A stretch of 64,000 nucleotides of DNA. Origin: Jiangella ureilytica (GTDB lineage Bacteria; Actinomycetota; Actinomycetes; Jiangellales; Jiangellaceae). Numbering within the stretch: position 1 is the first letter of the stretch; the number at the start of each line of letters is the position of its first letter. Where the stretch lies: positions 1-64,000 of the forward strand of contig NZ_SMKL01000021.1 in NCBI RefSeq assembly GCF_004348545.1, read 5' to 3'. A program made the position numbers and the translations under genes. This document shows, one piece after another, positions 42,030-43,730 of this stretch. Below the pieces are notes generated by a model. It did no database searches and was not told the origin of the DNA. It saw only the letters and a program-made list of their open reading frames with translations.

Positions 42030-42722
42030 ATGACGCTGACGGTGCAGTCGCGGTTCCGCGGCCCCACGACATCGGGCAACGGCGGCTACGTCGCCGGTTT
42101 GCTGGCCGCGACGTTCCCGGGCGGCGAGGGGCCGGTCACCGTCACGCTGCGGACGCCGCCGCCGCTGGAGACGCCACTGTCGGTCGCGCCCTCCCCGGAG
42201 GGTGAGGGTGTGTCGCTGCTTCACGGGCCGACGCTGGTCGCCGTCGCCGCTGGCGGTGCGCCCGAGGGTGACCTGGTCGCCGTCGAGCCGGTCGCCGCGT
42301 CGGAGGTGGCCGCGATCTCGGCGCGGTACCCGGGGTTCTCGGCGCACCCGTTCCCGGAGTGCTTCGTCTGCGGCCCGGACCGCTCCCCCGGCGACGGGCT
42401 GCGGCTGTTTCCCGGCCGGGTGGGCGACGGCCGGACGGCGTGCGCCTGGTCTGTGGGCGCCGATGTCGCGGGTGCGCCGGAGTTCGTGTGGGCGGCGCTC
42501 GACTGCCCCGGCGGCTGGGCCGCGCCCATCGAGGGCCGCCCGATGGTGCTCGGCCGCATCACGGCTCTGGTGTCGGATGTGCCGTTGCCCGGCGAGACGT
42601 GCCTGGTCATGGGCGCACTCGTCGGCACCGAAGGCCGCAAGACCTGGACCGACTCGACGGTCTACGGCTCCGACGGGCGCGTGCTCGGCCAGGCCCGGTC
42701 GACGTGGATCGCGCTGCCGTGA
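42030..42722 (+). CDS. two-hotdog thioesterase-like protein
   Basis: 230 residues. The N-terminal half starts with the hotdog-type FRGPTTSGNGGYVAGLLAA; the second half has a FPECFVCGPDRSPGDGLRLFPG stretch and VWAALDCPGGWA, a layout I associate with acyl-CoA thioesterase-like proteins of actinobacteria. No clear catalytic residue can be chosen. ATG 42030 follows TAGGCT (42016-42021) by 8 nt, a leaderless pattern. A weak GCCCGG/CCGGGC hairpin lies just after the stop. Confidence 0.7.
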   Translation: MTLTVQSRFRGPTTSGNGGYVAGLLAATFPGGEGPVTVTLRTPPPLETPLSVAPSPEGEGVSLLHGPTLVAVAAGGAPEGDLVAVEPVAASEVAAISARYPGFSAHPFPECFVCGPDRSPGDGLRLFPGRVGDGRTACAWSVGADVAGAPEFVWAALDCPGGWAAPIEGRPMVLGRITALVSDVPLPGETCLVMGALVGTEGRKTWTDSTVYGSDGRVLGQARSTWIALP

Positions 42723-42765
42723 CTCGTGCCCGGTTTGTTCCCGTGTTCACCGGGCGGAAAAGACG

Positions 42766-42795
42766 TTGCCGGAGGGCGGGGGCGTTGCTTAACGT
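42766..42795 (+). promoter_or_regulatory. strong promoter of the structured RNA/leader
   Basis: TTGCCG (42766-42771), an 18-nt spacer and TAACGT (42790-42795) give a good -35/-10 pair. Transcription should start near 42802, just before a GGAGAGGAGG ribosome site. Confidence 0.6.
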
Positions 42796-42801
42796 TGGGG
42801 G

Positions 42802-43090
42802 CACACGGAGAGGAGGTGGTCCAGTAGATGAATAGCTATCGGACTTGTGAGGTGGCTGCTCGCTAGCAGCCCTGCTCGACGCAGGACTTGGGGGTGACCC
42901 CCGCGTTCGCCGGCCTGGTTGCTGGCACTACCGAGCAGTCACCCGACCCGTGGGCTCCCGGCGCTGGTCCGTCCGGGCCACGTCCGCCGACCGTGTTGGT
43001 CAGCGGAGTGGAAGCAGCCCACGGGTCGTCCCATTTCCGGGCCCGTTCTGCCGGTTGGCCGGGGGTTCGAGGTTCGCCGGGGTGATGAGG
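42802..43090 (+). ncRNA. candidate structured RNA or long leader
   Basis: No long ORF. Hairpins can form at 42854-42871 (GGCTGCT/AGCAGCC), 42871-42885 (CCTGC/GCAGG) and 42890-42902 (GGGGG/CCCCC). A perfect 12-bp long-range stem pairs 42945-42956 (GACCCGTGGGCT) with 43016-43027. Dense helices behind a good promoter suggest a regulatory RNA or a leader. I do not recognise a known class (not tmRNA, not RNase P by any motif I can see). End point is arbitrary. Confidence 0.5.
42828..42866 (+). CDS. 12-codon ORF (MNSYRTCEVAAR) with very strong ribosome site
   Basis: ATG 42828 is 9 nt after GGAGAGGAGG and follows a TAG stop. The ORF ends at TAG 42864, which lies inside the first hairpin (42854-42871), so a ribosome on it would open or block that stem. 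This is the geometry of an attenuation leader peptide, but no operon gene follows within 800 bp. Confidence 0.5.
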   Translation: MNSYRTCEVAAR

Positions 43091-43099
43091 TGGGCTCCC

Positions 43100-43243
43100 G
43101 TCCCCCTGCTGCCCATTCTCTTAACCCCGGGCACCCGCCTCAAGCCGGCGCCCTCTGTGGTCACCTCGCCGCTGCGCTTGCGGGGCTTCGGCTTGACCCG
43201 GGCACCCGGGGCCTAAGAACGGGCAGCTATCAGGGGGACGGGG
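43100..43243 (+). repeat. 140-bp inverted-end element, copy A
   Basis: Left end GTCCCCCTGCTGCCCATT and right end that is the inverse of GTCCCCCTGATAGCTGCC; both ends are imperfect inverts of each other. Its right 38 bp are exactly the inverse of the left 38 bp of copy B (43564-43601). Confidence 0.75.
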
Positions 43244-43270
43244 AGACCCTGGGCACGCCTCGCGGCCCGC

Positions 43271-43349
43271 GTCCCCGTTCGCGTCCCCGTTCGCGTCCCC
43301 GTTCGCGCCCCCGTTTCGCGCCCCCGTATCGCGCGCCCGTTTCGCCCGG
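43271..43349 (+). repeat. 12-bp tandem repeats
   Basis: GTCCCCGTTCGC occurs three times exactly at 43271-43306, followed by about four diverged units (GCCCCCGTTTCGC, GCCCCCGTATCGC and similar). Simple-sequence array inside the region bracketed by the two inverted elements. Confidence 0.8.
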
Positions 43350-43400
43350 TTGGCCCGGTTCGCCGGACTCTGCACCGCGATGATCATCGGCGATCCGCTA

Positions 43401-43490
43401 CATCACCAGGCGTTCTGCCGCTTCACCAGGCGTTCTGCCGCTTCACCAGGCATGCAGGCCTCGTGAAGCGGCAGAGAACCTCGTGATGGC
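43401..43490. repeat. 20-bp tandem repeats folded into a long imperfect palindrome
   Basis: CACCAGGCGTTCTGCCGCTT occurs at 43404-43423 and 43424-43443; CACCAGGC begins a third. The sequence then returns as an imperfect inverse (GTGAAGCGGCAGAGAACC at ~43462-43480, ending CTCGTGATG), so the whole forms a long hairpin. Confidence 0.7.
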
Positions 43491-43563
43491 CCCGCGAAAC
43501 GCGCCAAATCCCACATCGCGGACGCACCAAGGCCCGCCGACCCCGCGCCCGTCGCCAGACTCG

Positions 43564-43695
43564 CCCCGTCCCCCTGATAGCTGCCCGTTCTTAGGCCCCG
43601 GACGGGCGGGTCAAGCGGACCCCCACGGCGCGAAGCGCCACCAGGGTCCGCTTGAGGCGACCGTCCGGGGCTAAGAGAATGGGCAGCAGGGGGAC
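43564..43695 (-). repeat. 130-bp inverted-end element, copy B
   Basis: Same element as 43100-43243 in opposite orientation: the 38-bp end nearest copy A is identical to it in inverse, the far end shares GTCCCCCTGCTGCCCATT and the next ~8 bp. The inner parts differ in sequence and length. Confidence 0.75.
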
Positions 43696-43730
43696 GGGGA
43701 ACCCCACGCAACCCCACGCACCAAGGACGC

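Follow-up and report, generated by a model that had tools for sequence, protein, structure and literature searches.

Introduction

Short open reading frames (ORFs) are found in several described types of bacterial RNA. In the dual-function sRNAs SgrS and SR1, the encoded peptides (SgrT and SR1P) have functions of their own. Leader-peptide attenuators are exemplified by the whiB7 upstream ORF and the trp leaders, and tmRNA is a structured RNA with a pseudoknot and a short ORF that ends in a stem. The extended Shine-Dalgarno (SD) motifs described in Staphylococcus aureus form two extra base pairs, as seen by cryo-EM (PMC13009471).

The RNA considered here belongs to Ms_IGR-5 (RF02471), a known actinobacterial sRNA that Rfam files as ‘Gene; sRNA’ with its function unassigned. 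Ms_IGR-5 is one of the 139 sRNA transcription units whose two ends were mapped in S. avermitilis (PMC8780764), is supported by RNA-seq in S. lividans (PMC8079986), and in M. smegmatis overlaps ncMSMEG15794c (PMC10454040).

A full-length Ms_IGR-5 RNA in Jiangella ureilytica

The window is a stretch of 64,000 nucleotides of Jiangella ureilytica DNA (contig NZ_SMKL01000021.1 of assembly GCF_004348545.1, positions 1 to 64,000). Within it, positions 42803–43034 match RF02471 with 83.9 bits (E 4.5e-17; gathering cut-off 45), and this match is untruncated, spanning model positions 1–184 of 184. A first-pass annotation, made from the sequence alone, had stated that none of the ordinary RNA classes is recognizable and had offered a new small RNA as one of three explanations. 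The statement was wrong because the feature is a member of an Rfam family, and the class is accordingly not a new one. What is new is the anatomy, namely an ORF, a complement of the 16S rRNA tail and a pseudoknotted fold, none of which is reported in the literature searched, a scope that ended short of the original description of the RNA (RNA 2013;19:74).

The predicted RNA and the promoter elements that precede it are as follows.

42758–42761, + strand: A-tract upstream of the -35 box, conserved about 41–44 nt upstream of ACAC in relatives
42766–42771, + strand: -35 box TTGCCG, from sequence; the TTG is conserved at the same distance in relatives
42790–42795, + strand: -10 box TAACGT, from sequence; TAnnnT is conserved in relatives
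42802–43040, + strand: predicted RNA of about 240 nt, from the RF02471 match and the folding z-score

The promoter proposed in the first-pass annotation, two boxes separated by an 18-nt spacer, is thus present at 42766–42795, and its elements can be aligned in relatives, where the A-tract (which we take to be UP-element-like), the TTG and the TAnnnT are each retained at a constant spacing relative to the start of the RNA. We infer the 5′ end of the RNA from this promoter and the 3′ end from the terminal hairpin described below. The extent first given for the feature (42766–43090) was too long, as the feature proper is predicted to stop near 43040 and a separate multicopy repeat begins at about 43090. 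Directly 3′ of the RNA, an imperfect long inverted repeat occupies 43097–43257 and 43550–43698, with arms that match over 49 nt at 90% and over 88 nt at 80%. Its left part, a dispersed repeat, recurs at about 20 further places in this genome and at many in relatives from the genus. Between the arms are tandem arrays (43256–43315 and 43389–43451) of 12-nt units (CGCGTCCCCGTT) and 20-nt units.

Of 246 genomes sampled from the class, 160 (about two thirds) contain an RF02471 match above the cut-off, compared to 0 of 14 controls. A DNA search pattern that is blind to start, stop and frame, but that includes GAGGTG, matched 239 of 393 genomes and 82 of 137 genera, with 0 occurrences of the reversed control pattern among the matches listed. 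Named matches include Streptomyces, Mycobacterium, Nocardia, Nocardioides, Cellulomonas, Nonomuraea and Geodermatophilus; five family-level groups (f3, f5, f25, f34 and f36) have none among the matches listed. Two pattern matches in viral sequences both lack the ORF and were put down to chance. Copy number is nearly always one per genome. A single genome (G102) carries two copies detected by the covariance model (L045 and L112), whose 12-codon ORFs are both intact and differ in sequence, and two others (G300 and G322) have two DNA-pattern matches each.

For comparative analysis we used 229 relatives, comprising 111 loci from the covariance model and 118 loci from the blind pattern. The latter are what remained of 121 stretches after three chance matches in coding frames were excluded.

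A 12-codon ORF that is very probably translated

Three elements near the 5′ end of the RNA bear on translation.

42807–42822, + strand: purine-rich complement of the full 16S rRNA 3′ tail, holding the SD core GGAGG (16 of 16 pairs)
42828–42866, + strand: 12-codon ORF MNSYRTCEVAAR, from ATG at 42828 to TAG at 42864–42866, with start, stop and frame kept in relatives
42849–42854, + strand: GAGGUG (codons 8–9), identical in 229 of 229 relatives, for 118 of which it was part of the search pattern

The 12-codon ORF that had been noticed behind the promoter is present, and it is retained throughout the family. An in-frame ATG, TTG or GTG occurs in 228 of 229 relatives (108 ATG, 93 TTG, 27 GTG and a single ATT), and all 229 have a stop codon (194 TAG, 19 TGA and 16 TAA). 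Taken separately, the covariance-model loci that pass a motif filter have an in-frame start in 109 of 110 cases, the exception being the ATT of L018; the locus that failed this filter (L050) nevertheless carries a GTG start. The loci found with the blind pattern have the start 10–12 nt after GGAGG in 117 of 118 cases (in the remaining one, L216, it lies at 7 nt and is in frame), and the stop is found exactly three codons past GAG GTG in all 118.

This phase is kept even as the distances change. The length of the ORF varies by whole codons only, although single-base differences are seen in the spacer that precedes it. Eight distances separate GGAGG from GAGGTG in the family (33, 34 and 36–41), yet the start is in frame in 228 of 229 sequences. 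When the slots are shifted by one or two bases, start codons appear in 0–7% and stop codons in 0% of sequences, and shuffling of the spacer yields starts in 6.7%. By parsimony, on a rough tree built from the rest of the same RNA, the first base of the start codon underwent at least 31 changes among A, T and G, with C in 0 of 229 sequences, and positions 2 and 3 underwent 0 and 1 changes. For the stop codon the minimum is 19 changes, none of them to a sense codon (n=229).

From these patterns, the ORF is very probably translated, and its start, stop and frame appear to be under selection. Ribosome footprints have been reported on the M. abscessus and M. smegmatis homologues, and the authors of that study caution that many non-coding RNAs show footprints as well (PMC4974804). 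The view that this is a structured non-coding RNA with a coincidental ORF agrees with its filing by Rfam as an sRNA, but it is refuted by the statistics on start, stop and phase unless these triplets serve another role, and we find it scarcely credible.

UAG accounts for 194 of 229 stop codons in the family and for 16 of 56 genes predicted in the window by crude gene calling. Pairing of the stop codon within helix H3 (see below) or a role for RF1 may lie behind this excess.

The ORF is preceded by a sequence that could pair with the entire 16S rRNA tail

The 3′ end of the genome's own 16S rRNA is GGAUCACCUCCUUUCU, and positions 42807–42822 can form 16 of 16 pairs with it, three of which are G-U, in a duplex with a calculated energy of -27.9 kcal/mol. 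The next best run upstream of 3,630 NTG triplets in the window is 10. The full 16 bases can pair in 193 of 229 relatives, 15 can pair in 31, and 12–14 in the other five. Moreover, the variation tolerated in this region is that expected of a strand facing the tail: among the 111 covariance-model loci, positions 2–16 follow the pairing rule in 97–100% of sequences, with A or G opposite U, C or T opposite G, a fixed G opposite C and T opposite A. Elsewhere in this genome, whole-tail complements occur in rDNA and at one site within a long open frame, and three outside the RNA in relatives likewise fall in long open frames. The comparative data therefore support the capacity of this SD region to pair with the whole 16S tail.

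The ORF probably also serves as a structural core of the RNA

The first-pass annotation had called the RNA densely folded, and indeed its folding energy of -134.3 kcal/mol is well below the mean of shuffled sequences (-104.6 kcal/mol; z = -5.54), with 0 of 200 shuffles as low. The proposed fold consists of the following parts.

42804–42806, + strand: 5′ strand CAC of helix H0, partner 42847–42849 (codons 7–8); covaries, 4th and 10th highest among 21,115 column pairs
42840–42845, + strand: pseudoknot strand CGGACU (codons 5–6), partner 42966–42971; GGAC/GUCC and GGAU/AUCC covary
42851–42860, + strand: 5′ strand of helix H2 (codons 8–11), partner 42934–42943; covaries
42862–42871, + strand: 5′ strand of helix H3, with the stop codon, partner 42917–42926; in the minimum free energy (MFE) structure, with weaker covariation than the other helices
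42917–42926, + strand: 3′ strand of H3, from covariation and the MFE structure
42934–42943, + strand: 3′ strand of H2, AGCAGUCACC; covaries
42944–42956, + strand: 5′ arm of terminal hairpin T; 12 of 13 pairs covary
42957–42977, + strand: sub-hairpin within T whose loop carries GUCC, from a separate 48-locus alignment
42966–42971, + strand: T-loop GGUCCG, pseudoknot partner of codons 5–6; covaries
43016–43028, + strand: 3′ arm of T, a probable terminator that lacks a good U-tract, from sequence and covariation

Covariation was scored on 191 sequences of less than 88% identity, giving 21,115 corrected column-pair scores. Ranks 1–12, and 18 of the top 23, fall in the five proposed helices (T, H2, H0, H3 and the pseudoknot), and for each of these 0 of 500 shuffles, which ignore relatedness, reach the observed pairing or covariation. 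The pseudoknot is also evident from a simple count: the loop carries AUCC alone in 17 of 21 sequences with GGAU and in 0 of 184 with GGAC, where 24 sequences with both motifs, neither motif or GGGC were omitted. The two features on which the first-pass annotation had made its reading depend, covarying stems and a kept ORF, are both found in relatives.

A separate alignment comprised 48 of the 102 covariance-model loci that remained after an identity cut; one of its H3 strands was moved one column to match the majority alignment. In these sequences, 88.6% of cells in the proposed helices are paired, compared to 33–41% when strands are slid by 1–3 columns. With shuffles that ignore relatedness, 28 pairs changed on both sides compared to 19.6 in shuffled alignments, and the covariation score is 0.328 compared to 0.161. 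The individual helices differ in strength. The GC-rich, 13-bp T stem is paired in 97% of cells, and H3 is the weakest nested helix with 71%. The outermost pseudoknot pair is kept in 17 of 48 loci, and the wobble pair at the Thr codon in 25 of 48. Both stems singled out at first pass are real in this genome with corrections. The perfect long-range stem described as 12 bp exists as T (42944–42956 with 43016–43028) and is 13 bp long, and the 7-bp hairpin GGCUGCU/AGCAGCC that contains the stop codon is present here but absent from many relatives. Judged from an alignment by eye, this local hairpin was rejected as a general feature.

A hairpin at the start codon, H1 (GUCC/GGAC), was likewise considered and rejected as a conserved helix. 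It hardly covaries, the GGAY quartet of the ORF instead following the T-loop, and 13 sequences with AUCC in the SD region and GGAC in the ORF retain GUCC in the loop. Its core can pair in 91–100% of cells at four positions, and H1 appears in place of the pseudoknot in both the MFE structure and the RNAalifold consensus, which are produced by programs that cannot represent pseudoknots. RNAalifold also pairs the 5′ CAC with the GUG of the SD, an arrangement without covariation, whereas pairing of this CAC with the GUG of the ORF covaries. H1 and the 16S-tail duplex compete for the same bases, and H1 is a possible alternative state.

Overall, the comparative evidence supports a predicted structure in which the ORF doubles as structural RNA, with codons 5–6 pairing with the T-loop, codons 7–8 with the 5′ end and codons 8–11 with the strand that precedes the terminal hairpin. 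Less certainly, the stop codon lies within H3.

The encoded peptide follows the RNA

The same pairing appears to dictate much of the peptide. Codons 2–4 are free and A/T-rich (n=229), codon 6 changes from Thr to Met or Ile when GGAC becomes GGAU, codon 7 encodes Arg, Cys, Ser or Gly with a first base that tracks H0, and codons 10–12 (A/V/T) vary with H2. Conservation as a peptide was therefore not found across the relatives. The Cys, Tyr and Arg codons emphasized at first pass do not merit that emphasis, as these residues vary with RNA pairing.

A functional 12-residue peptide, in the sense of SgrS or SR1, would explain why the ORF is kept throughout and why Glu-Val is identical in 229 of 229 relatives. 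However, the pattern that retrieved 118 of these already contained GAG GTG, residues 2–4 are free, and residues 6, 7 and 10–12 change with their RNA partners, including Thr to Met or Ile and Arg to Cys; we regard this explanation as quite improbable. The label of dual-function RNA nonetheless came closest among the three options first offered, in that ORF and fold are both kept, and it fits less well in that the peptide follows RNA pairing. Translation thus seems to be selected and the peptide less so. The peptide is probably not the product that matters.

Ms_IGR-5 appears to be an autonomous gene

As the first-pass annotation had noted, no gene follows on the same strand for about 650 bp; none is encountered before an ORF at about 44558, presumably citrate synthase, and a convergent pdxH-like ORF lies between it and the RNA. 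Among a subset of loci, Pfam analysis of 20 chosen proteins identified downstream neighbors on both strands that include MFS, histidine phosphatase, lactamase-fold, PknH-like, THAP4-like, CAAX protease, NlpC/P60 and MarR proteins. No conserved co-directional downstream gene was found in this subset, where the genes vary in kind and strand.

Upstream, a same-strand ORF at 42030–42722 (family unassigned, and presumably thioesterase-like) precedes the RNA in at least 19 of 111 loci, a lower bound given crude gene calling and mis-framed pdxH and nagA queries. At another locus, the gene adjoining the RNA (L017:1693–3177, minus strand) has matches to two domains, TIR and an extracellular one that is PknH-like.

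The short ORF, its stop codon in a stem and the terminator-like hairpin that follows bring to mind a transcription attenuator with a leader peptide whose operon was lost, as had been suggested at first pass. However, the genes downstream differ in kind and strand among relatives, no mutually exclusive antiterminator and terminator pairing exists among the covarying helices, and the RNA retains a promoter and a terminal hairpin of its own. This explanation is largely refuted, and we consider it very improbable. Instead, the comparative data support Ms_IGR-5 as an autonomous gene with its own conserved promoter, a GC-rich terminal hairpin and no conserved neighbor. In J. ureilytica a U-tract after the T stem is absent, as UCCCAUUU alone follows.

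An autonomous RNA with a terminal hairpin could also be a trans-acting, base-pairing sRNA, in which CAGYCACC and the GUCC loop would be seeds for mRNAs and the ORF would protect the RNA or time its decay. M. smegmatis IGR-5 is on a list of sRNAs detected with the help of heterologous Hfq (as cited by PMC10454040). However, both candidate seeds have covarying internal partners, and because these partners explain the conservation of the seeds, no targets are needed to account for it. We judge a trans-acting sRNA to be unlikely.

A possible ribosome-gated RNA switch

Translation and the fold are supported comparatively, and from these we infer a gating mechanism and its output. Specifically, Ms_IGR-5 could be an autonomous ribosome-gated switch in which translation of 12 codons unfolds the RNA, a proposal whose chances we put at about even. 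When the RNA is folded, H0 and the pseudoknot would close a loop that presents the SD and start codon, and almost all of the ORF from codon 5 through the stop would be paired. A free 30S subunit would dock at the over-long SD through the long tail duplex, and elongation through the 12 codons would then remove the pseudoknot, H0, H2 and H3 in that order. The SD-like GAGGUG ends 9 nt before the stop codon and six bases before the last sense codon; at this distance of about 6 nt, it may retain a terminating ribosome through the 16S tail. The unfolded state would expose CAGYCACC and the GUCC loop or admit RNases, such that RNA level or activity would report ribosome availability. We tentatively suggest that Ms_IGR-5 might be a class-wide sensor of free ribosomal subunits that captures 30S and signals through the pseudoknot loop and CAGYCACC. 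To our knowledge, no other bacterial RNA has such a design.

The main rival to a sensor is an RNA that merely decoys or parks subunits, with the 16-nt tail duplex trapping 30S (or 70S at the stop, via GAGGUG). Its effect would be fewer initiations elsewhere or a store of subunits, and translation of the 12 codons would be a slow release step only. Complementarity to the whole tail, which is almost unique in the genome as a gene start, is consistent with such a trap, as are the conserved promoter with its A-tract and the footprints in mycobacteria (PMC4974804). However, a single RNA gene would need a very high copy number to act in this way, and a pure trap requires neither a kept stop codon nor a covarying ORF fold, which makes a decoy rather unlikely.

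With this comparison, the role of a so far unexplained sRNA becomes a directly testable question about the sensing of translation capacity. About two thirds of the actinomycete genomes sampled (160 of 246) have the RNA, Mycobacterium and Streptomyces among them, and it has been filed as non-coding. Coding-potential filters miss ORFs of this kind; in S. clavuligerus, screening with CPC2 flagged just two conserved regions as peptide-coding, with 113 and 145 residues (PMC11678152).

Comparison with known systems

Ms_IGR-5 as represented by RF02471 is the same RNA family, matched end to end here. Its consensus structure lacks the pseudoknot, H0 and H2 that we find, and the portions of its descriptions examined mention no ORF. 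Dual-function sRNAs such as SgrS/SgrT and SR1/SR1P likewise have their own promoter and terminator and a translated ORF in a regulatory-type RNA, whereas in Ms_IGR-5 the peptide tracks the RNA pairing, and the structural core is formed by the coding strand itself. Leader-peptide attenuators also have a short ORF that ribosomes can translate only by melting stems close to a terminator; in contrast, this RNA has no conserved downstream gene, and no covarying antiterminator was found.

Like tmRNA, this is a structured RNA in which a pseudoknot accompanies a short ORF whose end lies in a stem. However, no tRNA-like domain was recognized, no Rfam match to tmRNA occurs in the window at the gathering threshold, and the ORF is equipped with an SD and a start codon of its own. 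Finally, the extended SD motifs of S. aureus similarly pair past the core toward the start codon and have a longer spacer (PMC13009471), whereas in Ms_IGR-5 up to 16 positions can pair, within an RNA that carries no long gene.
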